Positions 26,601-40,708 of a stretch of 64,000 nt of DNA are shown here, one piece after another. The notes under the pieces were generated by a model. That model ran no database searches and was not told the origin of the DNA. It saw only the letters and a list, made by a program, of their open reading frames with translations. The DNA is from Ureibacillus massiliensis 4400831 = CIP 108448 = CCUG 49529 (GTDB taxonomy: Bacteria > Bacillota > Bacilli > Bacillales_A > Planococcaceae), in NCBI RefSeq assembly GCF_000772965.1, contig NZ_JPVQ01000017.1:1-64000 (forward strand), in the 5' to 3' direction. The translations under genes and the position numbers were made by a program. Within the stretch, counting starts at the first letter, position 1. Each line of letters begins with the position of its first letter.

Positions 26601-27177
26601 CTTGCAGCTTTTAACCTATTTAAATGTTGCTGTAGATAATGCGAGTCATTGGATTACAGGTGAGGCGAAACCAGCAGGTGTTTTATATGTTCATGTCCAT
26701 AATCCGATTTTAAAAATAGAAGAAGAACTCGACGAAGCAACTCTTGAGATGGAACGTTTACGAAAATTCCGCATGAAAGGTTTATTAGCTGAAGATATAG
26801 ATTCATTGGTATTAATGGATGAGGAGCTTCAAGAAAGTGGAAAATCTAAAATCATACCAGTGCAATTGAAAAAGGATGGCTCTGTTTATCAGCGTAATTC
26901 TCGTGTAGTCATTCCATTTGAAATGGATCATTTGCAGCAATATGTACGCAGTAAGCATAAGCAAGCTGGTGATGGTATTTTAAGCGGGGAAACATCGATT
27001 GGACCATATAAATTAAAAAATAAAACAGCCTGCGATTTCTGTTCATTTAAATCGGTTTGTCAATTTGATCCTACTGATAACATGCAAAACTACCATCAAT
27101 TACAGGCAGAACAATCGGAAAATATACTTCACAAAATCAAAGAGGAGTTGAACAGTGATGCGAGCGATACCTTCTAA
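23653..27177 (+). CDS. addB: Helicase-exonuclease subunit AddB
   Basis: AddAB is the RecBCD counterpart that resects double-strand breaks and recognises Chi. 1174 aa from a TTG behind AAAGGGGGC. Residues 1-20 carry a Walker A (GRAGSGKST). The C-terminal nuclease domain has FRVIDYKSS-type residues (here LRVIDYKSS, about 965). The Fe-S staple cysteines fall at about 804, 1127, 1130 and 1136, close to the B. subtilis positions. The end overlaps addA by about 20 bp, so the pair is one operon. Confidence 0.97.
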   Translation: MSIRIISGRAGSGKSTLIQNEIVTELKRDPLGTPIYVIVPDQMSFSTEYELTNHYDIRGMIRAQVMTFKRLAWYVLQETGGIAKEKIDKIGYRMLIRRLLMEHKDEFSLFRQAADKRGFTEEVEQLIKEFSQYNINSEALHEVIGKLEGTQAPHTLISKTKDLQLILQELEQQLGDTYVDGDSFFPVLVEQLPNSEKIKQAHIYIDGFTAFTVREFDIVKQLIALAERVTIVLPFENEQDKDDDQALFYRSAVMYDKLMDEAKQLQIEVEPRVHLTGNYRFLNNDLRQIEANFHEPIVKPVKSDGFVRVLEGANRRAEVHGIAREICRLVKEEKVRYQDIGIMYRQADVYDPLILTIFPQYDIPVFTNEKKAMLHHPLIEFSRSILEVVTSKWQYEPVFRSVKTDLFFPLKSNLTEMREKADQFENFVIAQGIYGYRWFEESRWFYKKYRGLEFLTKRQTDEELAIQRTIDEMRSLISEPLMELQKNLEDSETGRDIALALYQCIENLQVYEKLQALKDEELEKNLLISAAEHDQAWNRWINVLDQFVIMFGDQKMTVEEAAKILDEGYDTLQFSSIPPAVDEVTVATVEYSRFDNMKVVFVIGVNDGVYPMRMDYEGLITDVEREWFSAVDTELSPTSKHRLLQEAFLIYRAFSSPTERLYVTFASADEESKSLLPSLYINRLHKLFEINGEKTLPHERILIDPIEELDKSNVLSYLQHPATAIAYLMMQLRQAQYTNELAPEWVALKTYYEQDIKWKSTLQSIMGPLEKKNEAERLTQDITDELYGTELTSSVSRVEKFYSCPFAHFTTYGLGLEERAQYKLENFAMGDLFHEALKWISIETEKKKIAWNKLSKEQCALLARSAVEHIVPVFSHQILLSSARYRYIQHKLIRIVERTMIALSQQAKSSHFRPIAIEASFGPGKEMLPPLEIDLNGGRKMKLRGRIDRIDSAEVDQKAFLRVIDYKSSSRDLDLNEVYYGLSLQLLTYLNVAVDNASHWITGEAKPAGVLYVHVHNPILKIEEELDEATLEMERLRKFRMKGLLAEDIDSLVLMDEELQESGKSKIIPVQLKKDGSVYQRNSRVVIPFEMDHLQQYVRSKHKQAGDGILSGETSIGPYKLKNKTACDFCSFKSVCQFDPTDNMQNYHQLQAEQSENILHKIKEELNSDASDTF

Positions 27178-30100
27178 AGGGCCAGATGTAACATGGACGG
27201 ACGAGCAATGGAAAGCAATATGGGCTACAGGACAAGATACGCTTGTATCAGCTGCTGCTGGCTCTGGAAAAACAGCAGTTCTGATTAATCGTATGATTGA
27301 AAAAGTTATTGCAAATGAAAATCCTATTGATGTAGATGAATTGCTTGTTGTGACCTTTACAAATGCATCTGCAGCGGAAATGCGCCATCGTTTGAGTGAG
27401 GCTTTAGAAAAAGAAATAGCGAAAGACCCACGTAATCAGCATTTACGTCGTCAATTAAGCTTAGTAAATAAAGCGCAAATCTCCACTTTGCATTCATTCT
27501 GTTTATCCATAGTACGTCAGTATGCCTATTTACTTGATATTGATCCCGGATTCCGTATTGCAAATGAAGGGGAATCATCATTATTAAGAGATGATGTTTT
27601 AGCAGAAGTATTGGAAGAAGCTTACGATAATAAGGATGAAGCAAAAGTAAATGCCGTGTATCGTTTGGTAGATAGCTTCACATCAGATAGGGACGATCAA
27701 GCTATTGAGACATTGATTGATCGACTTTACGAGACTTCTCGCGTTCATCCTAAGCCGTCTGAATGGTTAAAATCTTTACCTAAACAATACAAGCTACCAG
27801 CTGATGCAACAATTGATCAATTACCTTACATTGATCATGTAAAAAATGCAGTGAAGTTTAGTTTGCAAGAGGCCTTTGCTTATATTGTAGATATGCGTGA
27901 GCTTGCATTAAAGCCAGATGGTCCTGCTCCTTATGGCGAAACTGCTGAATTGGATTTTATACTGATTCAAGAGGGAATCCGCAGAGTTACTAATGGTACA
28001 TGGCAGGAATTATATGATTATTTCGCTTCTTTAAAATGGTCAACTCTTGCAAGAGTAAAAAAAGATAGCTGTGATCCAGATTTACAAGATTTAGCAAAGA
28101 AAAAAAGAGATCATGCTAAAAAGATAATGACTCAAATAAAAGATTCATTTTTTACGAGAACACCTGCGAGATTGTTAGAAGAAATTCGTCTAATGGCACC
28201 GTTAATCGAAACGTTAGTAGAGTTAACTGAAAACTACGGTAAAAAGTTTCGAGCAGCAAAGCTTGAGCGCGGATTAGTCGATTTTTCTGATTTGGAGCAT
28301 TATGCTCTTCAAATATTAGCTGACGTTGAAAATGGTGAACTTCAGCCATCTGAAGTAGCGAAGGAATTTCAACAAAAATTTAAAGAAGTACTAGTGGATG
28401 AATACCAAGATACGAATATGCTGCAAGAAACGATATTACAGCTTGTGAAAAGCGGAGATGAAGCAACGGGTAATTTATTTATGGTAGGGGATGTAAAGCA
28501 ATCCATCTATCGATTCCGATTAGCTGAACCAATGCTTTTCTTAAACAAATACTTAACATTTGAAGACGATCCAAAGAATACTGGGTTAAAAATTGATTTA
28601 AATGCAAACTTCCGAAGTCGTAAAGAAGTACTACATGGGACAAACTATGTTTTCCAACAAATTATGGGGAAGGCTGTTGGGGAAATAGATTACGATGAAA
28701 AAGCGGAGTTAAAGCCTGGAGCGCCCTATGATGATATTGAAACACCAGTGGAATTTGTTGTTTTGTATGAAGAACAAGAAGAAGAGACTTCAAGCAACGA
28801 AAATGAAACGACTGAAGTAGATATTGTAACGGAAGAGGAAATTGCAAAATCTCAACAAGAGGCTCGCTATATTATAAGTAGAATTAAAGAGCTAATCGAA
28901 AGTGGCGCAACGGTTTACAACGCGAAAGAAAAAGATCCGGCAAAACGAATGAGACCTATACGATATAGTGACATTGTCATTTTAATGCGTTCTATGACTT
29001 GGTCTGCAGATTTAGTAGAAGAATTTAAGTCAGCGGGTATACCTCTTTATGCAGAATCTTCAAAGGGATACTTTGAGGCATTAGAAGTGATGGTCATGCT
29101 AAACGTATTAAAAATTGTAGATAATCCATATCAGGATATCCCATTAGCCTCTGCATTGCGAGCGCCCTTTGTTGGTTTGACGGAAAATGAGCTAGCAACA
29201 ATTCGACTAGCAAAAAAGAATGTTCCTTTTTATGAATCAGTAAAAACATTTGTCCGGGAGGAACGCTCAGGTTTAAATGGAAATACAGCTGAGAAGCTAC
29301 ATCAATTTCTAATTCAATTAGAAGAATGGCGGAATATGGCTCGTCGTGGATCGTTATCAGATCTAATTTGGAGAATATATTTAGATACGAATTATTATGA
29401 AATGGTCGGTGCGATGGCCAATGGAAAACAAAGACAAGCAAACTTACGTACATTACATGACCGCGCATTAATGTATGAGAAATCATCATTCCGAGGATTA
29501 TTCCGTTTCCTACGATTTATTGATCGAATGCGTTTGAGAGGGGATGATTTAGGAGTCGCTAAATCCATTGGTGAGAAGGATGATGTCGTTCGATTAGAAA
29601 CGATTCACTCATCAAAAGGGCTAGAATATCCTGTTGTATTTGTAGCAGGGCTTGGTCGTAGCTTTAACCAAATGGACTTTTCCAATACTTATTTGTTTGA
29701 TCAGCAATATGGACTTGCTGTAAAAGCAATAGATCCTGACAATCGTATCATCTATACTTCCCTGCCATTTTTAGCAATGAAAGAAAAGAAAATTTTAGAA
29801 ATGAAAGCGGAGGAAATGCGAATTTTATACGTGGCAATGACACGTGCAAAGGAAAGACTCATTTTAGTTGGTTCAGTGAAAAATTGGGAGAAAACAAGAG
29901 ATGAATGGTGTGAGATTGGACATCTTTCAGAGCAATCAATGCTCCCAGAATATTTGAGAGCTCGTGCGAAAAATTATTTAGATTGGATTGGACCAGCAGT
30001 TGCTCGCCATGAATGTTTCGCATCCTTCCATAATGGAAAGTACAATGTGATCTCACATCCTTCAAAATGGATGATTTCGGCTATTCCTAATGAAACTTTT

Positions 30101-30895
30101 TTAAATACATTTTCTCAAAAGGATGATTCTATATTAGATGATACAAGTCAACAGCCAGTAGATGAAAATATTTTATATGAATTGAAAAAACGTTTTACTG
30201 CTAAATATCCATTTGAGCATTCGACAAAGAAAAAATCTAAAACAAGTGTTACTGAGATTAAACGTATTGAGAATCTACAGCGCGAAGAAGAGCAGGATGA
30301 ATGGATTCCGGAAAGTCATGAGTCGAATCAACAGAAAAATACTACTGTTATTAAAAGGCCTATGTTTTTACAGCAAAAATCTTTATCTAGTACAGAAATG
30401 GGGACAGCTGTTCATACAGTGATGCAGCATGTACCAAAAGAAGGGTTCCAAAGCCTTGAAGAAATCAATCGATTCCTTCTAGGACTAGTAGATAAGCAGC
30501 TTCTTACGGAAGAAGAGCTTCGTGTAATTGAACCTGATAAAATTATCCAGTTTTTTGAATCGCCGATTGGCAGAAGGTTTATTCATGCAAAACAATTACA
30601 TCGTGAGGTACCATTCACTTTATCGAGAACAGATGATGAAGGGGATCCCCAAATTGTCCAAGGGATTATTGACTGTTTATTCCTTGATGAAGAAAATAAG
30701 TGGGTATTGCTTGATTATAAGACGGATAAAATTCTTCCGAAATTTAAAGATGAGCCAGCCTTAATAAAAGAAATGACTAATAGATACGGTGTACAGCTAC
30801 GTATTTACAGTGAGGCAGTTCAAGCGGTGCTCGATGTAGATGTAGATGAAAAAGTGATTTATTTATACAATGCGCAAAAGGAAATTCAACTTTAA
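27158..30895 (+). CDS. addA: Helicase-exonuclease subunit AddA
   Basis: UvrD-type helicase plus nuclease of AddAB. About 1245 aa. Walker A is AAAGSGKTAVL (about residues 33-43), helicase motif II is VDEYQDTN (about 416), and the later motifs include TIHSSKGLEYPVVF and VAMTRAKE. The RecB-family nuclease near the C-terminus carries LLDYKTD. ATG 27158 and GTG 27155 are both possible behind AGAGGAG. It overlaps addB. sbcDC, which follows in B. subtilis, is absent here. Confidence 0.97.
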   Translation: MRAIPSKGPDVTWTDEQWKAIWATGQDTLVSAAAGSGKTAVLINRMIEKVIANENPIDVDELLVVTFTNASAAEMRHRLSEALEKEIAKDPRNQHLRRQLSLVNKAQISTLHSFCLSIVRQYAYLLDIDPGFRIANEGESSLLRDDVLAEVLEEAYDNKDEAKVNAVYRLVDSFTSDRDDQAIETLIDRLYETSRVHPKPSEWLKSLPKQYKLPADATIDQLPYIDHVKNAVKFSLQEAFAYIVDMRELALKPDGPAPYGETAELDFILIQEGIRRVTNGTWQELYDYFASLKWSTLARVKKDSCDPDLQDLAKKKRDHAKKIMTQIKDSFFTRTPARLLEEIRLMAPLIETLVELTENYGKKFRAAKLERGLVDFSDLEHYALQILADVENGELQPSEVAKEFQQKFKEVLVDEYQDTNMLQETILQLVKSGDEATGNLFMVGDVKQSIYRFRLAEPMLFLNKYLTFEDDPKNTGLKIDLNANFRSRKEVLHGTNYVFQQIMGKAVGEIDYDEKAELKPGAPYDDIETPVEFVVLYEEQEEETSSNENETTEVDIVTEEEIAKSQQEARYIISRIKELIESGATVYNAKEKDPAKRMRPIRYSDIVILMRSMTWSADLVEEFKSAGIPLYAESSKGYFEALEVMVMLNVLKIVDNPYQDIPLASALRAPFVGLTENELATIRLAKKNVPFYESVKTFVREERSGLNGNTAEKLHQFLIQLEEWRNMARRGSLSDLIWRIYLDTNYYEMVGAMANGKQRQANLRTLHDRALMYEKSSFRGLFRFLRFIDRMRLRGDDLGVAKSIGEKDDVVRLETIHSSKGLEYPVVFVAGLGRSFNQMDFSNTYLFDQQYGLAVKAIDPDNRIIYTSLPFLAMKEKKILEMKAEEMRILYVAMTRAKERLILVGSVKNWEKTRDEWCEIGHLSEQSMLPEYLRARAKNYLDWIGPAVARHECFASFHNGKYNVISHPSKWMISAIPNETFLNTFSQKDDSILDDTSQQPVDENILYELKKRFTAKYPFEHSTKKKSKTSVTEIKRIENLQREEEQDEWIPESHESNQQKNTTVIKRPMFLQQKSLSSTEMGTAVHTVMQHVPKEGFQSLEEINRFLLGLVDKQLLTEEELRVIEPDKIIQFFESPIGRRFIHAKQLHREVPFTLSRTDDEGDPQIVQGIIDCLFLDEENKWVLLDYKTDKILPKFKDEPALIKEMTNRYGVQLRIYSEAVQAVLDVDVDEKVIYLYNAQKEIQL

Positions 30896-30963
30896 ATATA
30901 AAATTTCACATGTAAGAAACGTGATAAAAACTGCGGCAATTAGATGTAGAAAGGGGCCGAATT

Positions 30964-32124
30964 GTGGGCTTTCAACCAACAACATTAAACGAAAGAATTG
31001 AATCATTAGATATTATAAGAGGCTTCAGTTTGCTTGGGATTTTAATAGTAAATGTTTTTGCATTCTATTTACCGATGCCACATATCGATTTGCAAGCTTG
31101 GTTTGTGGAAGCGAAGGATGTTATATGGTATCAGCTAGTGGAAATTTACGCAACAAGCAGTTTTTATCCATTATTTTCAATGCTATTTGGATATGGACTT
31201 GCGATGCAGTTTTTGAAAGCAGAGCGTACTGAAACGTCATTTTATCCCTTCGTATCAAAACGATTAGTCATATTGCTTATCCTTGGAATGCTACATGCCG
31301 TATTCATTTGGTGGGGAGATATTTTATCTACCTATGCCTTTTGTGGCTTTTTCCTATTAATGTTTATCCGCTTTACTCCTAAAGTTCTTATTACAATAGG
31401 ACTTGCAATATATGGCTTAATGCAATTCATGATTTTATTCATTTACAGTGTGACGGGAATTGTGAATAGAGAAATCGAGGGAATCCCGGTAGATATTGAG
31501 ATGGTTGAACATGCGATTACTTCATATGGTATAGGAAATTGGATGGATGCTTTTTATCAACGATTAATTGATTTAACGGTCCAAATGCAGCCTGCAATGT
31601 GGCTTTTATCATTATTTACAATTTTACCTTATATGATGATTGGTGCTGCATTTGCGAAGTGGCGTCTAATAGAGCGAGCTAAGGGTTTAAAGCCTTTTTG
31701 GATTGTCCTTGCAGTTGTAGGTATAGCAATCGGACTAACGATTAAAAGTGCACCCTTTATGTTTACACATACGTATTTGTTAGATTATTTACAGGTGTAC
31801 GTAGGTGGGCCAGTATTAGCAATCGGCTATATGGCACTAATCGTATGTATTTGCATGGTTCCGTTTATTAAAAAGATTCTTCACCCAATTGGGCTAGCTG
31901 GTAGAATGTCCTTAACCATTTATCTTATGCAATCAATTATCTGCTCTGTATTATTTTATAATTATGGCTTTGGTTTATATGGTCAAATAAATGTACAAAT
32001 GGGCGTATTAATTGCCATTGTAATTTTTATTGTCCAAATCATGTTTGCAATCCTATGGTTTAGTAAATTTAAGCAAGGACCCCTTGAAGTAGCAATGAAA
32101 AAAATAATTTATCGCAAAATTTAG
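30964..32124 (+). CDS. DUF418 family membrane protein
   Basis: 386 aa from GTG 30964 behind AAAGGGG. About nine to ten membrane spans. The N-terminal RIESLDIIRGFSLLGIL and the SMLFGYGLA motif, plus a C-terminal block with GLAGRMSLTIYLMQSI, are characteristic of the YeiB/DUF418 family, distantly related to membrane acyltransferases. Substrate and role are unknown. It stands alone between addA and yisK. Confidence 0.88.
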   Translation: MGFQPTTLNERIESLDIIRGFSLLGILIVNVFAFYLPMPHIDLQAWFVEAKDVIWYQLVEIYATSSFYPLFSMLFGYGLAMQFLKAERTETSFYPFVSKRLVILLILGMLHAVFIWWGDILSTYAFCGFFLLMFIRFTPKVLITIGLAIYGLMQFMILFIYSVTGIVNREIEGIPVDIEMVEHAITSYGIGNWMDAFYQRLIDLTVQMQPAMWLLSLFTILPYMMIGAAFAKWRLIERAKGLKPFWIVLAVVGIAIGLTIKSAPFMFTHTYLLDYLQVYVGGPVLAIGYMALIVCICMVPFIKKILHPIGLAGRMSLTIYLMQSIICSVLFYNYGFGLYGQINVQMGVLIAIVIFIVQIMFAILWFSKFKQGPLEVAMKKIIYRKI

Positions 32125-32169
32125 TGAAAAGTAAGCAAATTGAAAAAATTTGATGTATGATGTTATCAA

Positions 32170-32208
32170 ATCATAAAATTTCATGTGATGTACAAAAGAT
32201 TTTATGAT
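32170..32208. other. Inverted repeat upstream of yisK
   Basis: ATCATAAAAT and ATTTTATGAT are perfect 10-bp arms 19 nt apart. No T-run follows. It may be a weak transcript end for the DUF418 gene or an operator; it is low-complexity, so chance is possible. Confidence 0.3.
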
Positions 32209-32305
32209 GTAATAGCATGATAGTAGATAAGGTTATATTTTGAGATATTCATAATTTAACAGGCTACTATTAATTGACGAATAAACATAAGGAGCGCTTT
32301 TTACG

Positions 32306-33208
32306 ATGAAGATTTTGTCTTTTAAATTGAATGGTGAAGTGAAGTTTGGACCGAAAGTCAAAAAAGAAGAAGCTGTCTGGGACGTAGTTGCTATTCAGCG
32401 AGATTTAAATGTTTTACCAACTTTTTCTACAAATATTATCGATGGAATTGCTCTTGGTTTCGACTTTGTTGAACAAATTAGAAAACTTGTTGAAGCAGCA
32501 GAACAATCTACTTCGACTGAACAATATAAACTATCATTTTCTGAGATAGAATGGTTATCTCCTGTTCCAAGAACACCTAAAAATATTATTTGTATCGGAA
32601 AAAATTATGATGAACATGCAAAGGAAATGGGTGCAGAAGCAGCTCCAAAGAACTTATTAGTGTTCACAAAGGCAGCAACTTCGATTGCAGCAGATGAACA
32701 GGTATTGCCAATCCATGCAACAAAAACAGATTCTTTGGATTACGAAGGAGAGCTTGCTGTTGTTATTGGAAAATTAGGAAGAGATATTCCTAAAAACCAA
32801 GCCTATGATTATATCTTTGGGTATACAATTGCAAATGATATTACAGCACGTGATTTACAACAACGTCATGTTCAATTCTTTTTAGGTAAAACATTAGATG
32901 GTACTTGTCCAATGGGTCCTTATTTAGTTACAAAAGATGAAATACCAGATCCACAAAAATTAACAATCGTAACTAAAGTGAATGGGGAGATTCGTCAAAA
33001 TGGCTCAACAAAAGATATGATGTTCCCAGTTGATGAATTAATCTCGACCTTATCGAAATATGTCACATTGGAGCCTGGTGATGTGATTTTAACAGGTACA
33101 CCTGAAGGAGTCGGAAAAGGCATGAAGCCACCAACTTTCTTAAAAGCTGGCGATGAAGTGAAAATTTCCATCGAAGGAATTGGTACATTATCTAATCGCT
33201 TTGAATAA
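32306..33208 (+). CDS. yisK: Fumarylacetoacetate hydrolase family protein YisK
   Basis: 300 aa, closely matching my recollection of B. subtilis YisK (301 aa): NIICIGKNYDEHAKEMG, LDYEGELAVVIG, NDITARDLQ and LTGTPEGVGKG. The metal-binding acidic residues of the FAH fold (E and D in the YEGELAVV and NDITARD regions) are present. B. subtilis YisK has oxaloacetate decarboxylase activity and associates with Mbl in the lateral wall. Downstream yisL keeps the B. subtilis adjacency. The N-terminal 90 residues form the small YisK-type domain. Confidence 0.85.
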   Translation: MKILSFKLNGEVKFGPKVKKEEAVWDVVAIQRDLNVLPTFSTNIIDGIALGFDFVEQIRKLVEAAEQSTSTEQYKLSFSEIEWLSPVPRTPKNIICIGKNYDEHAKEMGAEAAPKNLLVFTKAATSIAADEQVLPIHATKTDSLDYEGELAVVIGKLGRDIPKNQAYDYIFGYTIANDITARDLQQRHVQFFLGKTLDGTCPMGPYLVTKDEIPDPQKLTIVTKVNGEIRQNGSTKDMMFPVDELISTLSKYVTLEPGDVILTGTPEGVGKGMKPPTFLKAGDEVKISIEGIGTLSNRFE

Positions 33209-33307
33209 TTCATATTTTAGACACTATTAAAGAAACTATAATGTTTGAAGCCACACCTTCTATCATGGTAGGATATGTATTGAAATGATAAAAAAGGTGG
33301 GGAAATA

Positions 33308-33664
33308 ATGGGTTTTTTAACTGACTCAACACATTTACACATTACAACATGGGTAATCGGTTTAATACTATTTTTCATAGCAGCTACAGGTATCTCTAAA
33401 TCTAAAGGGATCCACATGGTATTAAGATTATTTTATATTTTAATTTTAATAAGCGGTGGCGCATTGTTCTTCAAATGGCGAGTAAACTTTGAGTATGATA
33501 TTAAATTTTTATTAGGTATTCTGTTAATAGCGATGATGGAAATGATTTTAGTCCGTCAAGCGAAAAACAAATCTACTAATGTATTCTGGGTATTATTCTT
33601 TATCTTCCTATTTGCAACACTATTCTATGGATTAAAACTTCAAATGGGATTCGATTTATTCTAA
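33308..33664 (+). CDS. yisL: YisL family (UPF0344) membrane protein
   Basis: 118 aa, the same length as B. subtilis YisL, with four membrane spans. Shared features are THLHITTWV near the start, VLRLFYILILISGG, ILLIAMMEM and a terminal GFDLF. Start ATG 33308 after AAGGTGGGG. Function unknown. A terminator follows. Confidence 0.9.
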   Translation: MGFLTDSTHLHITTWVIGLILFFIAATGISKSKGIHMVLRLFYILILISGGALFFKWRVNFEYDIKFLLGILLIAMMEMILVRQAKNKSTNVFWVLFFIFLFATLFYGLKLQMGFDLF

Positions 33665-33669
33665 ACATG

Positions 33670-33698
33670 ACGCAAAGCTTTATGCTTTGCGTTTTTAT
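33670..33698 (+). terminator. Terminator after yisL
   Basis: Perfect stem ACGCAAAGC/GCTTTGCGT with a 5-nt loop, then TTTTTATTTT. Confidence 0.9.
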
Positions 33699-33894
33699 TT
33701 TGCTTATTTCCTTATATATTCCAATTATTAGATTAAATTTAAATAAGTAGAGGAAAGCTATAAATAATTTGAAATAATTGTCACTTTTTTGTCGCAATTT
33801 ATCATTGCATTTAACTCATTTCATCTGAAAAGATAGCGCTTTATCTTATTTGTTTGATAAAATGACGATGGGTTGTTTTAAAGGAGAGATAAAA

Positions 33895-35364
33895 TTGAAA
33901 TTTAATAAATGGATTAGCGTATTAGCAACAACTGTACTTGCAACATCCTTAACGATAACGCCTGTTGCAAAAGCTGAAAATACGAAAACAATAGCAGACG
34001 AAAGTATATATGATCTATTAGTTGACCGTTATTTTAATGGAACAGATAAAAATGATTTAAATGTAAATGCACAAGACCCAAGTCAATTTGCTGGTGGAGA
34101 TTTTAATGGTATTTTACAAAAACTATCTTTAATTAAAGATATGGGATTTACGATTGTTTCATTAGGTCCAGTATTTGCAACGGAAAAATATGATGGAACT
34201 CTTACAACAAGCTATTCTGAATTTGAACCTCATTTTGGTACAGCAGAGGAATTCACAAATTTAGTAACCACTTTAAAGCAAAAGAATATGCGTGTGATGA
34301 TTGATTTCCCGTTAACTAACGTCAGTGAAAATCATGAATGGACACAAGATCCAGAAAAAGTAGATTGGATTGTTGGGACATCTAATGGTTTAGTGCGTTG
34401 GGACTTGAAAAATCAAGAGGTTCAGCAAGCACTTATTAATGCTATTGTGGAATTTGTAAGTACATATCATGTAGGTGGTGTTCGTTTAACGAACCTTGAT
34501 ATTGCAGATGCACAATTTTTAAATGACATGATTTCAGCAATTAAAGAAGTTGATGAATCAATCTACATCATTTCAGATGAAGAAAGTGATGCAAATTTCG
34601 ATGCAACTTATTTTAATGATACGAATGAAATTTTCCGTTCCATATATATAAATGTAGATCAAGATTCTTCTGAGCAGTTGAAATACATTGAACCATTTGT
34701 AAATGGTGAAACGAAGCCTACTCAAATTATGTTTGATAATATCAATACAGATCGCTTTATCATGGATGTAGAAGCATATCCACCTACTCGTTTAAAGATG
34801 GCGATTGCTTCCATGTTATTGCTACCAGGTCTTCCAGTTATGCAATATGGTACCGAAATTGCAATGAATGGTGCAGTTGGACCTGAATCACATCAATTAT
34901 ATAATTTCAGAACTGATGAAGAACTAGTGGACTTTATCGAAAATATTCAAATGTTAAAGAATAGTTCGGATACACTTCGTGGTGGAGAGTTTAAATTGCT
35001 AAAAAATGAAAATGGACTTTTAGCATTTATGCGCTCATCTGAAGACGAAAAATGGATTGTCGTAATAAATAATACAAGTAAAACGAAAAGAATCGACATT
35101 CCAAAGGATTTAGTTGGGGAAGGTAAAGAGATTCAAGCGATGTTAGATAGTGAAGTTGTGCGAGTGAACAATGAAAATGTTTACCCACTTGCGTTAGATC
35201 GAGAAGTTGTAGAGATTTACCAAGTGGTCGATGAGAGAGGCATTAATATTCCATATCTAATTGCATTAGGATTTGTTTATCTCATATTTATCTCATTTAT
35301 CGTTGCATTAATGAGAAGATCAAAACGAAATCGAAAAAATGAAACTACTGAAAATACAAACTAA
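33895..35364 (+). CDS. Membrane-anchored GH13 alpha-amylase-like pseudoenzyme
   Basis: 489 aa from TTG 33895 behind AAAGGAGAG. Signal peptide (about 1-27, ending VAKA), GH13 barrel (DESIYDLLVDRYFNG onward), a beta domain (about 375-445), and one C-terminal membrane helix (about 452-474) with a basic tail. The overall fold matches the TM-anchored Bacillaceae alpha-amylases, but the catalytic regions are altered. The region II nucleophile Asp is Thr (VRLTNLD, about T199). The region III acid/base Glu aligns with Asp (IISDEES, about D228). In region IV, NHD reads NIN (about N284), and region I NH reads TN (about 141-142). Hydrolysis is therefore unlikely; a binding or structural role is inferred. 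Alignment was by eye. Confidence 0.85.
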   Translation: MKFNKWISVLATTVLATSLTITPVAKAENTKTIADESIYDLLVDRYFNGTDKNDLNVNAQDPSQFAGGDFNGILQKLSLIKDMGFTIVSLGPVFATEKYDGTLTTSYSEFEPHFGTAEEFTNLVTTLKQKNMRVMIDFPLTNVSENHEWTQDPEKVDWIVGTSNGLVRWDLKNQEVQQALINAIVEFVSTYHVGGVRLTNLDIADAQFLNDMISAIKEVDESIYIISDEESDANFDATYFNDTNEIFRSIYINVDQDSSEQLKYIEPFVNGETKPTQIMFDNINTDRFIMDVEAYPPTRLKMAIASMLLLPGLPVMQYGTEIAMNGAVGPESHQLYNFRTDEELVDFIENIQMLKNSSDTLRGGEFKLLKNENGLLAFMRSSEDEKWIVVINNTSKTKRIDIPKDLVGEGKEIQAMLDSEVVRVNNENVYPLALDREVVEIYQVVDERGINIPYLIALGFVYLIFISFIVALMRRSKRNRKNETTENTN

Positions 35365-35373
35365 TATAGAAAC

Positions 35374-35411
35374 GAGGCAAAATCTCATAATTGGGATTTT
35401 GTCTTTTTTAT
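35374..35411 (+). terminator. Terminator after the pseudo-amylase gene
   Basis: GAGGCAAAATCTCA pairs with TGGGATTTTGTCTT (wobbles) around a short loop, then TTTTTTATTTTTT. Confidence 0.85.
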
Positions 35412-35602: not shown

Positions 35603-36592
35603 TTGAAAACGGGTAATGAGCTTTTAAGGATAAAAGATTTACATACTGGTTTTCGAATTCAAGATACTTATTATGATGCAGTTGATCATGTATCTTTAAC
35701 TCTTCGGAAAAATGAAGTGCTTGCAATCGTTGGAGAATCTGGTTGCGGGAAAAGCACCTTAGCTAGTTCTATTATTGGACTGCATGATCATGAAAAAGTA
35801 CGAATACAAGGTGAAATCCTATATAACGATAAAAATATAGCTACTATGTCAGAGGATGAGTTAAATAAAATACGCGGTGTAGAAATTAGTATGATTTTTC
35901 AGGATCCTTTGTCAGCATTAAATCCATTGATGCGTATCGGTGACCAAATCGAAGAGGGGTTAACGTATCATACTAACTTAACGAAGTCTGAAGGAAAGAA
36001 ATATGTACTTGAATTATTACATCAAGTTGGAATAACCGATTCAAAAAGAGTTGCAAAACAATTTCCTCATCAGCTTTCAGGTGGCATGAGACAAAGAGTA
36101 ATGATAGCCATTGCGATTGCTTGTAAACCTCAAATAATTATAGCGGACGAACCAACAACTGCATTGGACGTGACGATTCAATCACAAATTTTAGATTTAC
36201 TATTAAGTTTAAAAAACGAAACGAACTCAGGAATATTACTTATTACTCATGACTTAGGGGTAGTGGCTGAGGTAGCTGATCGAGTTGCAGTCATGTATGC
36301 AGGTGAAATTATTGAGGAAGCACCTGTAGAAAAATTGTTTAAAAATCCAAAACATCCATATACACGTTCATTATTTCATTCAGTTCCACAAATGAATAGT
36401 CATAATGGCAGGTTAAATGTAATTCAAGGGATTGTTCCATCATTGATTCATCTTCCGAGAAATGGATGTCGCTTTGCATCAAGAATTCCTTGGATACCAG
36501 AAGAAGCTCATGAAGAAAATCCAGTACTACATGAGATTTCACCAGGACATTTTGTTCGATGTACTTGTTGGAAGCATTTTTATCTTAGTTAA
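35603..36592 (+). CDS. Oligopeptide ABC transporter ATPase, OppD/AppD type
   Basis: 329 aa from TTG 35603 behind AAGGAGGAG. Walker A is GESGCGKST (about residues 47-55), the Q-loop MIFQDPLSALNP, the signature LSGGMRQR, Walker B IIADEPTTALD, and the C-terminal OppD/F extension (HPYTRSL with a later cysteine-rich FVRCTCW). It energises peptide uptake with its OppF-type partner. That partner lies 1.27 kb downstream because a 52-bp tandem array fills the gap. Gene order D-F-B-C-A most resembles the app/dpp class (inference). Confidence 0.92.
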   Translation: MKTGNELLRIKDLHTGFRIQDTYYDAVDHVSLTLRKNEVLAIVGESGCGKSTLASSIIGLHDHEKVRIQGEILYNDKNIATMSEDELNKIRGVEISMIFQDPLSALNPLMRIGDQIEEGLTYHTNLTKSEGKKYVLELLHQVGITDSKRVAKQFPHQLSGGMRQRVMIAIAIACKPQIIIADEPTTALDVTIQSQILDLLLSLKNETNSGILLITHDLGVVAEVADRVAVMYAGEIIEEAPVEKLFKNPKHPYTRSLFHSVPQMNSHNGRLNVIQGIVPSLIHLPRNGCRFASRIPWIPEEAHEENPVLHEISPGHFVRCTCWKHFYLS

Positions 36593-36654
36593 ATAAATGT
36601 AAACTGATGAGGTGTTTTAAATATTTAAATGCTTATAGGGGTGATGATATTACC

Positions 36655-37715
36655 TCTCGGGGACAAAATTCTTATTGCGAAGGTAGGGAATGTCTTACGA
36701 ACTAGCTACTCAAGGACAAAATAATGCTTGCAAGTGTGTGAAATGTCTTCGAGAACGCCTCTCGAGGACAAAATACTGCTTGTGTGCGTGTGAAATGTCT
36801 TCGAGAACTTCTTTCGAGGACAAAACTCTGCGTTGGAGCGTGTGAAATGTCTTCGAGAGCGCCTCTCGCGGACAAAATGCTGCTTATGGGCATGTGAAAT
36901 GTCTTCGAGAACGCCTCTCGAGGACAAAATGCTGCTTATGAGCGTGTGAAATGTCTTCGAGAACACCTCTCGAGGACAAAATGCTGCTTATGAGTGTGTG
37001 AAATGTCTTCGAGAACGCCTCTCGCGGACAAAATGCTGCTTATGAGTGTGTGAAATGTCTTCGAGAACGCCTCTCGAGGACAAAATGCTGCTTGTTTGCG
37101 TGTGAAATGTCTTCGAGAACACCTCTCGAGGACAAAATACTGCTTATGAGTGTATGAAATGTCTTCGAGAACGCCTCTCGAGGACAAAATAATGCTTGCA
37201 AGTGTGTGAAATGTCTTCGAGAACGCTACTCGCGGACAAAATGCTGCTTGTGTGCGTGTGAAATGTCTTCGAGAACGCCTCTCGAGGACAAAATAATGCT
37301 TGCGAGTGTGTGAAATGTCTTCGAGAATGCCTCTCGAGGACAAAATGCTGCTTATGAGCGTGTGAAATGTCTTCGAGAACGCCTCTCGCGGACAAAATGC
37401 TGCTTATGAGTGTGTGAAATGTCTTCGAGAACGCCTCTCGCGGACAAAATGCTGCTTATGAGTGTGTGAAATGTCTTCGAGAACGCCTCTCGCGGACAAA
37501 ATGCTGCTTATGAGTGTGTGAAATGTCTTCGAGAACGCCTCTCGCGGACAAAATGCTGCTTATGAGTGTGTGAAATGTCTTCGAGAACGCCTCTCGCGGA
37601 CAAAATGCTGCTTATGAGTGTGTGAAATGTCTTCGAGAACGCCTCTCGCGGACAAAATGCTGCTTATGAGCGTGTGAAATGTCTTCGAGAGCGCCTCTCG
37701 CGGACAAAATGCTGA
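36655..37715. repeat. 52-bp tandem array, about 20 units, inside an ABC transporter operon
   Basis: GACAAAA cores occur at 36662, 36715 and then every 52 bp without exception to 37703. The unit contains GGACAAAATGCTGC, a TGTGTGAAATG segment, and an inverted repeat TGTCTTCGAGA-ACGCC-TCTCGAGGACA that would form a stem in RNA (one G-U pair). Early units are diverged, while five consecutive units from 37391 are identical, suggesting recent expansion. There are no unique spacers and no credible ORF. It shares the GGACAAAA core with the array at 3577-3940 (opposite strand). Confidence 0.95.
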
Positions 37716-37863
37716 CGTGAAGAATAGGAATTGTCATAAAAAAACAAGCATATGGAACATCAAATCCCTTAATGTTCCCGAATAAAGAGTCAAGGAAAAG
37801 GGAACATACATCAACAAACTTAAAAAAATTTAACGTTTTTGTTAGATTGGAGGATTGAACAGC

Positions 37864-38793
37864 ATGTTTATGAAGATTGAACGATTAAAAGTTTACTATC
37901 CTATTCGAGGTGGGTTTTTTAATAGAGTAATTGATCATATATATGCTGTTGATGGAATAAGTATGGAATTTGAGAGAGGAAAAACCTATGGGCTTGTGGG
38001 AGAATCTGGATGCGGAAAATCTACGACTGGTAAAGCAATCATGGGATTGGAAAAAGTAACTTCTGGGAAAATCTACTATGAAGGTGAAGATGTCACAAAC
38101 AAGCGTCGTGATAGAAAGTCTTCCTATTGTAAGGATGTTCAAATGATATTTCAAGACTCTCAATCAAGCTTAAATCCAAAAAAGAGAGTTTATGAGATTT
38201 TGGCTGAACCAATACGAAATTTTTTAAAGCTAACTCCAACAGAAGAGAGACGAAAAATTTACGAGCTCCTTACTATTGTCGGCATGCCAGAAGACTCTCA
38301 ATTTAAATATCCACATGAATTTTCAGGAGGGCAAAAACAGCGTCTCGGCATTGCAAGAGCCATTGCGACGAATCCTAAAATAATCATTGCTGATGAGCCG
38401 GTTTCTGCTCTTGATCTATCTGTTCAAGCACAAGTACTGAACTTTATGAAGGATATTCAGAACGAGTATGGTTTAAGCTATATTTTTATTTCTCATGATT
38501 TAGGTGTTGTCAAACATATGTGTGATTACATTGCCATAATGTACAAAGGTCGTTTTGTAGAAACAGGTACAAAAAAGGATATTTATAACAATCCTCAACA
38601 TATCTATACAAAAAGGTTACTCTCTGCAATTCCAGAAGCTTCACCAGTTGGAAGAGAAAAAAGAAAACGTGAAAGAATTGTACTAGAACATACCTATCAA
38701 AAAATACGTAATCAAAGTTTTGATGAGAAAGGACGCGTCTTTGATTTAGTTCCAATCACCAAAACCCATTTTGTAGCAGCATCTCCCTATTAA
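37864..38793 (+). CDS. Oligopeptide ABC transporter ATPase, OppF/AppF type
   Basis: 309 aa from ATG 37864, 10 nt after TTGGAGG; an in-frame TTG at 37855 is too close to it. Walker A is GESGCGKSTTG, the Q-loop MIFQDSQSSLNP, the signature FSGGQKQR, Walker B IIADEPVSALD, and an OppF-type C-terminus (HIYTKRLL, AIPEASP). It pairs with the OppD-type ATPase. The region immediately upstream is the tandem array, so it may be made from a read-through or a separate transcript. Confidence 0.92.
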   Translation: MFMKIERLKVYYPIRGGFFNRVIDHIYAVDGISMEFERGKTYGLVGESGCGKSTTGKAIMGLEKVTSGKIYYEGEDVTNKRRDRKSSYCKDVQMIFQDSQSSLNPKKRVYEILAEPIRNFLKLTPTEERRKIYELLTIVGMPEDSQFKYPHEFSGGQKQRLGIARAIATNPKIIIADEPVSALDLSVQAQVLNFMKDIQNEYGLSYIFISHDLGVVKHMCDYIAIMYKGRFVETGTKKDIYNNPQHIYTKRLLSAIPEASPVGREKRKRERIVLEHTYQKIRNQSFDEKGRVFDLVPITKTHFVAASPY

Positions 38794-38807
38794 GGAGGTC
38801 ATCTAAT

Positions 38808-39770
38808 ATGTGGAAAACAATTATAAGAAGAATCATCATCATGATTCCTCAACTTTTTCTATTAAGTATTCTCGTGTTTATATTAGCAAAATTTATGCCT
38901 GGGGACCCCTTTACCGGATTAATAACTCCGCAAACGGATCCGAATAGACTTGAAGAATTAAGAGAAGAAGCAGGATTAAATGATCCATTGCATATTCAAT
39001 ATATTCGATGGATTTCCAATGCTATTAAAGGGGATTTAGGTAGTAGCTATACTTATCAACGAGATGTTGGAGATCTCATTGGAGAAAGGGCATTGAATAC
39101 ATTTTGGCTTTCCTTTTTAAGTGTTATTCTCCTATATGCTATTGCCATACCTCTTGGAATTTTAGCTGGACGCTATCAAAATTCCAGAATAGATAAAACG
39201 ATTATTTTATATAGTTTTGTCACCTATGCCATTCCAACCTTTGTATTAGCATTATTATTTTTATATTTATTTGGCTATACGCTCGATTGGTTTCCAACGA
39301 GTGGAAGTGTCGATATCGAGCAGGAGGAAGGGACAATTGAATTTTTTTGGAGTAAATTTTACCATCTTATTCTTCCAGCTATCACCTATGCACTTCTAGG
39401 GACAACGGGCATCATTCAATATTTACGTTCAGAAATAATCGATGCAAAGTCAATGGACTATGTTCGCACGGCAAGAAGTAAAGGAATTCCGATGAGAAAG
39501 GTTTACTCAAAGCATATATTCCGAAATTCATTGCTTCCAATTGCGGCTTTTTTTGGTTTTACGATCACTGGATTATTAGGAGGTTCCATTTTTATTGAAA
39601 CAATTTTTGGCTATCCAGGAATGGGACAACTCTTTATTTCGTCTATCACTTCAAGGGACTATAGCGTAATTACTGCACTTGTAATGCTATATGGCTTTTT
39701 AACTTTATTAGGAAGTCTTCTGTCAGATATTATAATGAGCATCGTAGATCCACGGATTAGAATCGAATAA
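38808..39770 (+). CDS. Oligopeptide ABC transporter permease, OppB type
   Basis: 320 aa with six membrane spans. The BPD_transp_1 domain includes the EAA loop (DYVRTARSKGIPMRKVYSKH). The N-terminus (RRIIIMIPQLFLLSIL and a PGDPF motif) is typical of OppB/DppB. It follows the OppF gene by 14 bp behind AAGGAGG. Confidence 0.93.
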   Translation: MWKTIIRRIIIMIPQLFLLSILVFILAKFMPGDPFTGLITPQTDPNRLEELREEAGLNDPLHIQYIRWISNAIKGDLGSSYTYQRDVGDLIGERALNTFWLSFLSVILLYAIAIPLGILAGRYQNSRIDKTIILYSFVTYAIPTFVLALLFLYLFGYTLDWFPTSGSVDIEQEEGTIEFFWSKFYHLILPAITYALLGTTGIIQYLRSEIIDAKSMDYVRTARSKGIPMRKVYSKHIFRNSLLPIAAFFGFTITGLLGGSIFIETIFGYPGMGQLFISSITSRDYSVITALVMLYGFLTLLGSLLSDIIMSIVDPRIRIE

Positions 39771-39799
39771 CGTCCATTCCATTAAAAGAAGGTGAAAAC

Positions 39800-40708
39800 A
39801 TGGTAAGTATAACAAATAGACAAAAGGATAATGCTGATGTTATAAACTCAACTCCTACAGGAATGGAAGTCATTATGAGAGAGTTTAAGAAAGATAGGCT
39901 TGCATTATTCTCATTAATTGCAATGATTGTGGTGATTTCAGTTGTATTTGTGTGGTCACTCTTTATTGATCAAGAATCGTTAATGCGGGTTAGTTTAAAG
40001 GATCGATTTGCACCACCAGGGGAAAACTTTCTCCTTGGTGCTGATTCAGGGGGACGAGATATACTTGGACAACTGATTATCGGTGCTAGAAATTCGTTAG
40101 GAATTGCGATTGCTATTACGTTTATAACGGGCTGCTTCGGGGTAATTATAGGGCTCGTTTGTGGGTATTTCGGTGGTTGGATCGATCAAATCGTCATGAG
40201 AATTATTGATTTCTTTGTCACGATTCCATCCCTAATGTTAATCATTGTGTTCATTACAATCATCCCTAAGTACACGATTTTCTCTTTTATCTTGATTATG
40301 AGCTTATTTTTATGGACAGGCACTGCAAGGGTTGTCCGTTCAAAGGCTTTGTCTGAAAGTAAACGAGATTACGTTTTAGCTTCAAAAACCCTTGGCACAA
40401 ATGACTTAATCATTATTTTTCGTGAAATTGTACCAAATTTAAGTTCAATTTTAATCGTTGAACTTACTTTAAATTTTGCAGGAAATGTTGGTATTGAGAC
40501 TGGTCTAACCTATTTAGGATTTGGTCTTCCGCCAACAACACCGTCACTCGGAACTTTGGTCAGCTATGCCAATAACCCGTTAATCATTCAAGAATATTGG
40601 TGGCTTTGGTTGCCAGCATCTTTATTTATATTATTTATGATGCTCGGGATTAACTATGTTGGACAAGCGCTTAGACGTTCGGCTGACGCTCAACAACGCT
40701 TAGGCTAA
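39800..40708 (+). CDS. Oligopeptide ABC transporter permease, OppC type
   Basis: 302 aa with a cytoplasmic N-terminus (about 1-35), TM1 at about 36-56, the OppC_N-type segment, and a BPD_transp_1 domain with five further spans. The EAA loop is DYVLASKTLGTNDLIIIFREIVP. The ligand-gate motifs ADSGGRDILGQ and LTYLGFGLPP match OppC/DppC. It forms the pore with the OppB-type subunit. Confidence 0.93.
   Translation: MVSITNRQKDNADVINSTPTGMEVIMREFKKDRLALFSLIAMIVVISVVFVWSLFIDQESLMRVSLKDRFAPPGENFLLGADSGGRDILGQLIIGARNSLGIAIAITFITGCFGVIIGLVCGYFGGWIDQIVMRIIDFFVTIPSLMLIIVFITIIPKYTIFSFILIMSLFLWTGTARVVRSKALSESKRDYVLASKTLGTNDLIIIFREIVPNLSSILIVELTLNFAGNVGIETGLTYLGFGLPPTTPSLGTLVSYANNPLIIQEYWWLWLPASLFILFMMLGINYVGQALRRSADAQQRLG

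Follow-up and report, generated by a model that had tools for sequence, protein, structure and literature searches.

The best-characterized relatives of the protein analyzed here are the GH13_45 alpha-amylases ASKA, GTA and BaqA (PDB 5a2a-c, 4e2o), which have an intact catalytic triad (D213/E242/D310 in ASKA, whose numbering is used here; PMC4791539), the LPDIx motif, all substrate contacts and mostly a Trp pair. BmaN1 of Bacillus megaterium, the triad of which is aberrant, is reported to act on starch (PMC5347038, PMC11448133). The available part of Sarian et al. (2017; PMC5347038) also lists seven homologues of BmaN1, called intermediates, in which the triad is substituted throughout; these form its group (ii), sequences 28-34, and are irregularly substituted at each of the three catalytic positions. 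That part of the text does not discuss where the group (ii) genes lie, how they are distributed, whether they are under selection or what they do. In animals, the GH13 proteins rBAT and 4F2hc (SLC3A1/SLC3A2) are non-enzymatic membrane scaffolds (PMC8537225, PMC11239784), and their ectodomains are ancillary transporter subunits without proven glucosidase function (PMC8537225). Given these animal scaffolds and the seven triad-less sequences in the available part of Sarian et al. (2017), a role outside hydrolysis would not be new for this family, contrary to the preliminary description.

The window, i.e., the whole 64,000-nucleotide stretch of DNA that was analyzed, contains a GH13_45-type gene that we call the pseudo-amylase gene. 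The gene and its flanking signals are as follows.

33895..35364, forward strand: pseudo-amylase gene, GH13_45-type, 489 aa, TTG start (open reading frame list, Pfam, structure search, AF2 and Foldseek)
33895..33975, forward strand: predicted signal peptide, aa 1-27, ...PVAKA/EN (read from the sequence by eye and from aligned signal peptides of relatives)
35248..35316, forward strand: predicted C-terminal transmembrane (TM) helix, approximately aa 452-474, with conserved Y454, F465 and F468, and a basic tail to 35361
33669..33693, forward strand: putative terminator of the upstream yisL-type gene, parting the transcription units
35374..35405, forward strand: putative intrinsic terminator, 3' of the pseudo-amylase gene

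The frame opens with TTG at 33895, ends with a stop codon at 35364, has zero internal stops and is directly preceded by a good Shine-Dalgarno sequence, AAAGGAGAG. Its full length and its good flanking signals, both previously noted, were thus recovered, and because a terminator lies on either side, the sequence suggests that the pseudo-amylase gene is a transcription unit by itself.

The fold of the product is that of an amylase. Pfam recognized an Alpha-amylase domain (85.8 bits) and an Alpha-amylase_C_2 domain (69.8 bits), and the closest solved structures were those of ASKA and GTA (5a2a/5a2b, 4e2o; E ~1e-63 to 1e-70). The AF2 model, built from a 42-sequence alignment (pLDDT 85.4, pTM 0.81), consists of a TIM barrel, a C domain and, starting at aa 452, a C-terminal helix, and its top Foldseek match was 5a2c with a target TM-score of 0.86. 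The TIM-barrel domain A and the C domain are therefore present by AF2, Foldseek and Pfam, in agreement with the preliminary description of an intact GH13 scaffold, and the closest relatives of the product fall in GH13_45 whether judged by sequence, structure or tree. ASKA, GTA and BaqA, the top sequence and structure match, share with the window protein the fold, the domain order, the signal peptide and a C-terminal TM segment with conserved aromatics. The proposed secretion and anchoring are likewise borne out by the signal peptide predicted by eye and by the C-terminal helix, which is also found in the AF2 model; the tail of the product, read by eye, follows the positive-inside pattern. Y454, F465 and F468 of the TM segment are near-invariant and are partly common to active enzymes, and the C-terminal pattern GxN-x2-Y ... 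VY-x2-F-x2-F is common to the family sequences and to intact GH13_45 members. The C-terminal anchor is thus not special to the window protein, because active GH13_45 enzymes carry the same. The signal peptide and TM helix are retained throughout the Planococcaceae homologues.

In contrast to its fold, the active site of the window protein differs from that of the GH13_45 amylases. The reference for the alignment consisted of the solved GH13_45 amylases and 18 intact GH13_45 sequences; the 11 active-site positions scored were the contacts named in PMC4791539 and the region I His, and the family set comprised 128 distinct Planococcaceae sequences. The alignment placed the following residues at the catalytic positions.

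34315..34320, forward strand: region I, Thr141-Asn142 replacing Asn-His
34489..34491, forward strand: Thr199 at the nucleophile position (Asp213 of ASKA)
34576..34578, forward strand: Asp228 at the acid/base position (Glu242 of ASKA)
34741..34746, forward strand: Ile283-Asn284 replacing His-Asp (H309-D310 of ASKA; stabilizer)

Relative to ASKA, the substitutions are D213 to T199, E242 to D228, D310 to N284 and H309 to I283. Ten of the 11 positions are changed in the window protein and R197 alone is retained; the mean number kept is 10.5 in intact homologues vs. 1.05 in the 128 family sequences. Neither the nucleophile Asp nor the acid/base Glu is kept in any of the 128 family sequences, while 18/18 intact homologues keep them, a difference beyond chance. 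The nucleophile column reads Thr in 110, Gln in 12 and Ser in six of the family sequences, the acid/base column is never Glu, and the stabilizer column, with Asp in 9/128, is otherwise freely variable. The LPDlx motif in CSR-V (0/128 vs. 18/18 intact) and one further GH13_45 membership feature (0/128 vs. 14/18) are also missing, and the window protein has neither Trp pair nor LPD motif and retains domain B only in part. A misaligned triad was ruled out by phmmer, by MAFFT (166 sequences) and by one-residue windows: shifting the nucleophile and stabilizer positions by one residue revealed no carboxylate in the window protein and did not restore the triad. The motifs quoted in the preliminary description are all present, its claim that all three catalytic acids are lost holds at T199/D228/N284 against both solved and intact GH13_45 sequences, and the structure-based comparison it had called for showed no intact triad in the active site.

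These losses bear on what the protein could bind. Because nearly all of the glucan contacts, the Trp pair and the LPD motif are lost, the sequence makes binding of alpha-glucan in the ancestral groove unlikely. Of the two roles suggested previously, glycan binding is therefore disfavored, at least in the old groove, where one of 11 active-site positions is left, and a scaffold role fits better.

Whether the protein could still be an enzyme was considered in the light of BmaN1. A search for the published BmaN1 tail found no match in the family of genome G361; the wider order search found one genome 100% identical to it, with YVKDIDQ, IGEING and DDVHSTRF corresponding to K202/D203/E231/H294. The BmaN1 sequence falls inside the degenerate clade of the tree described below, and its close relatives lie a few genes from DUF418 and yisL. 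BmaN1 thus resembles the window protein in clade, aberrant triad and TM anchor. It is published as active with K202/D203/E231/H294, so an eroded triad need not mean inactivity, and this activity is the strongest argument against the whole clade being inactive. As has been claimed for BmaN1, residues shifted along the chain might then allow glycoside chemistry that is weak or of another kind, and a Glu directly follows the acid/base position in 88/128 family sequences. However, Glu231 and the shifted Asp203, which are retained in BmaN1 and proposed to serve there, are both missing from the window protein: the positions corresponding to the shifted Asp203, kept Glu231 and His294 are N200, D228 and N284. 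In the window protein no carboxylate lies at or next to the nucleophile or stabilizer position, all three one-residue windows are acidic in just 3/128 family sequences, and the acid/base Glu of BmaN1 occurs in 0/128. We therefore consider residual enzymatic activity improbable.

Homologues (E <= 1e-60) were found in 192 of 200 Planococcaceae genomes, covering all 19 genera sampled and including Ureibacillus, Lysinibacillus, Solibacillus, Sporosarcina, Bhargavaea, Planococcus, Paenisporosarcina and Viridibacillus; the search found no match in the other eight. Four of these eight (G075, G091, G114 and G123) belong to one genus (g10), other species of which carry a copy, so the gene can be lost. 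By the Nei-Gojobori method, median omega was 0.08 (range 0.04-0.18) over 220 pairs that are not independent of one another; the window gene and its nearest relative (94% identical) gave 0.09, and two active-enzyme pairs gave ~0.05. The earlier suggestion that selection keeps this frame is borne out by the low omega, by the presence in 192/200 genomes and by fixed synteny, and this selection is both stronger and older than could be known from the window. That the gene is decaying on its way to loss would fit the catalytic residues lost without fixed replacement at several positions and the eight matchless genomes. Against this stand the open frames, the omega of ~0.08, the distribution, the conserved upstream region and the kept signal peptide and TM helix. 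Selection and distribution effectively refute decay, to which we give very little credence.

Among 25 Ureibacillus genomes searched with the PF00128 profile, the pseudo-amylase gene was the only GH13 locus in 23; one genome had two copies, both of the pseudo-amylase kind, and one fragmented assembly had none. A second, equally degenerate copy lies elsewhere in the genome of Ureibacillus xyleni (L056, also G017:C28). Glycogen synthase (PF08323) was found in 0/25 Ureibacillus genomes, and the control was positive in 12/14. Given that almost every species of the family keeps this eroded protein, its work is very probably something other than digestion. An alpha-amylase annotation, which is likely across the whole family, would mislead, because the Ureibacillus genomes searched have neither a GH13 protein of another kind nor a glycogen synthase.

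The gene occupies a syntenic slot in Planococcaceae, addB-addA-DUF418-FAH-yisL-[pseudo-amylase gene]. Among 92 loci examined, 90-91 contain addA, DUF418 and FAH genes and 79 contain the yisL-type gene, with constant order; the genes 3' of the pseudo-amylase gene differ by genus. In the window, the upstream neighbors, named here by similarity, are as follows.

27155..33664, forward strand: conserved upstream neighbors, addA to YisL-type
27155..30895, forward strand: presumably addA
30964..32124, forward strand: presumably a DUF418-type membrane protein gene
32306..33208, forward strand: presumably FAH/YisK-type
33308..33664, forward strand: presumably YisL-type

These neighbors are conserved genome backbone and suggest no functional link to the pseudo-amylase. 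An opp-type peptide-transporter operon (35603-40708 and onward) lies directly 3' only in some genera (e.g., Ureibacillus and Metasolibacillus), and in genera without it DegV, HAD or FAD-oxidoreductase genes take that place. The opp genes were considered as a constant functional partner and rejected, because most other genera have other genes downstream. Between two of the opp ABC-transporter ATPase genes, a tandem array of a 52-bp unit (36709-37714; 19.3 copies, 91% match) interrupts an operon that is compact in relatives.

The region upstream of the pseudo-amylase gene contains two conserved blocks.

33778..33800, forward strand: conserved upstream block TTGTCACTTTTTTGTCGCAATTT
33853..33864, forward strand: conserved -10-like block TTTGATAAAATG (TTTGGTAAAATG in relatives)

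The pattern TTGTCAC..TTTTGTCG, followed by TTTGgTAAAATGacg 5' of the Shine-Dalgarno sequence, is conserved across genera. The stretch 33778-33864 is deeply conserved and includes TTGTC repeats at 11-bp spacing and a TTTGgTAAAAT element. A search of the source genome with the upstream block returned its own site and one match with 3 mismatches, and a reversed-pattern control gave as many; the block is thus essentially unique to the pseudo-amylase gene and reveals no regulon or co-regulated genes.

Two kinds of locus for GH13_45 genes were found in Bacillaceae-type families. Intact GH13_45 genes mostly adjoin another GH13 gene and three further genes, a locus that we read as a putative maltodextrin operon; unlike these intact homologues, the window gene is not in a sugar-transport-type locus. 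The addA/DUF418/FAH/yisL slot in other Bacillales families holds triad-eroded orthologues, and the slot genes of families f9, f29, f41 and f42 are all triad-degenerate. In a tree of 82 rows, 62 degenerate sequences formed one clade nested among intact ones with an SH-aLRT support of 99 (SH-aLRT being the branch support used in all trees). Two of the 62 (L215 and L220) lie outside the slot on long branches. When 41 active-site columns were removed, the degenerate group still fell on one side of a branch, with support reduced to 69. Given this drop, a single origin of the degenerate clade is favored, not proven; synteny lends it independent support. The window protein fits the description of group (ii) in the available part of Sarian et al. 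(2017), which is likely the same clade. Outside the addA/yisL slot, L205 (G309:C2) has His at the nucleophile position (DGYRLHAVNH) with acid/base and NHD intact, and its sequence is compatible with a possible independent loss.

The clade also has conserved residues of its own, three of which map to the following positions of the window.

34012..34014, forward strand: Asp40 at the end of strand 1, where 97% of the clade has Asp and intact enzymes have Phe
34192..34194, forward strand: Asp100, where 94% of the clade has Asp and intact enzymes have His
34891..34893, forward strand: His333, where 124/128 of the clade have His and ASKA has Arg362, a maltose contact

Together with S89 (98%), G91 (100%) and P139 (98%), the residues D40 (97%), D100 (94%) and H333 (97%) lie on the catalytic face, at strand ends and in loops. 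In L032, L152, L230 and L220 most of domain B is deleted and the anchored remainder of the protein is retained; 15-21 residues separate regions I and II in these lineages vs. 64 otherwise. By eye, the clade-specific residues are also present in such domain-B-less forms. Their conservation keeps in play a remodelled pocket, in which the old active-site face would bind another ligand (wall polymer, teichoic-acid sugar, peptide or signal) and the protein would act as a surface receptor or lectin. Yet all known maltose contacts but one are lost, the former triad positions vary freely and domain B is shortened or missing. In CGTase and TAKA-amylase structures, the positions of D100 and H333 adjoin each other at subsite -2, so that their joint change may, by analogy, be structural, e.g., a salt bridge. 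A receptor for a new ligand is accordingly rated as unlikely, if less so than a residual enzyme.

The reading that we rank first, at about an even chance, is that of an ancient, selected, membrane-anchored pseudo-amylase that serves as structural scaffold for another envelope protein. A GH13_45 alpha-amylase would have given rise to the copy at the addA-DUF418-FAH-yisL slot; this copy would have lost its catalytic and sugar-binding residues and been retained as a secreted ectodomain that the C-terminal TM helix anchors on the outside of the membrane. In the Planococcaceae form hydrolysis would be gone and old-groove binding of alpha-glucan probably gone, and the barrel/C-domain ectodomain with its TM helix would hold or stabilize another membrane or cell-envelope protein, a structural partner much as the heavy chains 4F2hc and rBAT are in animals. 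Supporting this scaffold are the absence of the triad in 128/128, the 192/200 genomes, the fixed slot, the omega of 0.08, the sole-GH13 status, the kept fold and the domain-B-deleted lineages that still keep the anchored protein. Counted against it are the new catalytic-face residues, which a pure scaffold would not need, and the backbone neighbors, which suggest no functional link; the report on BmaN1 counts against its inactivity part. For the window protein itself we infer inactivity, topology and scaffold role.

The literature on Lysinibacillus secretomes yielded nothing on the pseudo-amylase gene. Triad-substituted BmaN1 homologues (the available part of Sarian et al., 2017; PMC5347038) and animal non-enzymatic GH13 scaffolds were already known; within the literature searched, what is new is that the gene is retained across the family, in synteny and under selection, that it is the sole GH13 locus in most Ureibacillus genomes, that slot copies differ from intact copies and that BmaN1 belongs to this lineage. 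With intact, intermediate (BmaN1) and fully eroded members and a traceable locus, the loss of catalysis becomes directly testable, as does the debated activity of aberrant-triad amylases. The results also draw attention to a conserved, unstudied protein on the cell surface of Planococcaceae.

Like rBAT and 4F2hc, the window protein has a GH13 ectodomain that is membrane-anchored, and it shares with the SLC3 proteins an anchored GH13 ectodomain without catalytic triad, the anchor being predicted. Unlike it, rBAT and 4F2hc are animal proteins of another GH13 branch, with an N-terminal TM segment and a covalently linked known partner. By analogy, and only tentatively, the pseudo-amylase might be a bacterial counterpart of 4F2hc/rBAT, in which one ancient loss of catalysis would have produced a non-enzymatic, near-universal Planococcaceae envelope protein that stabilizes a membrane or wall-building complex, with BmaN1 as a half-way form.
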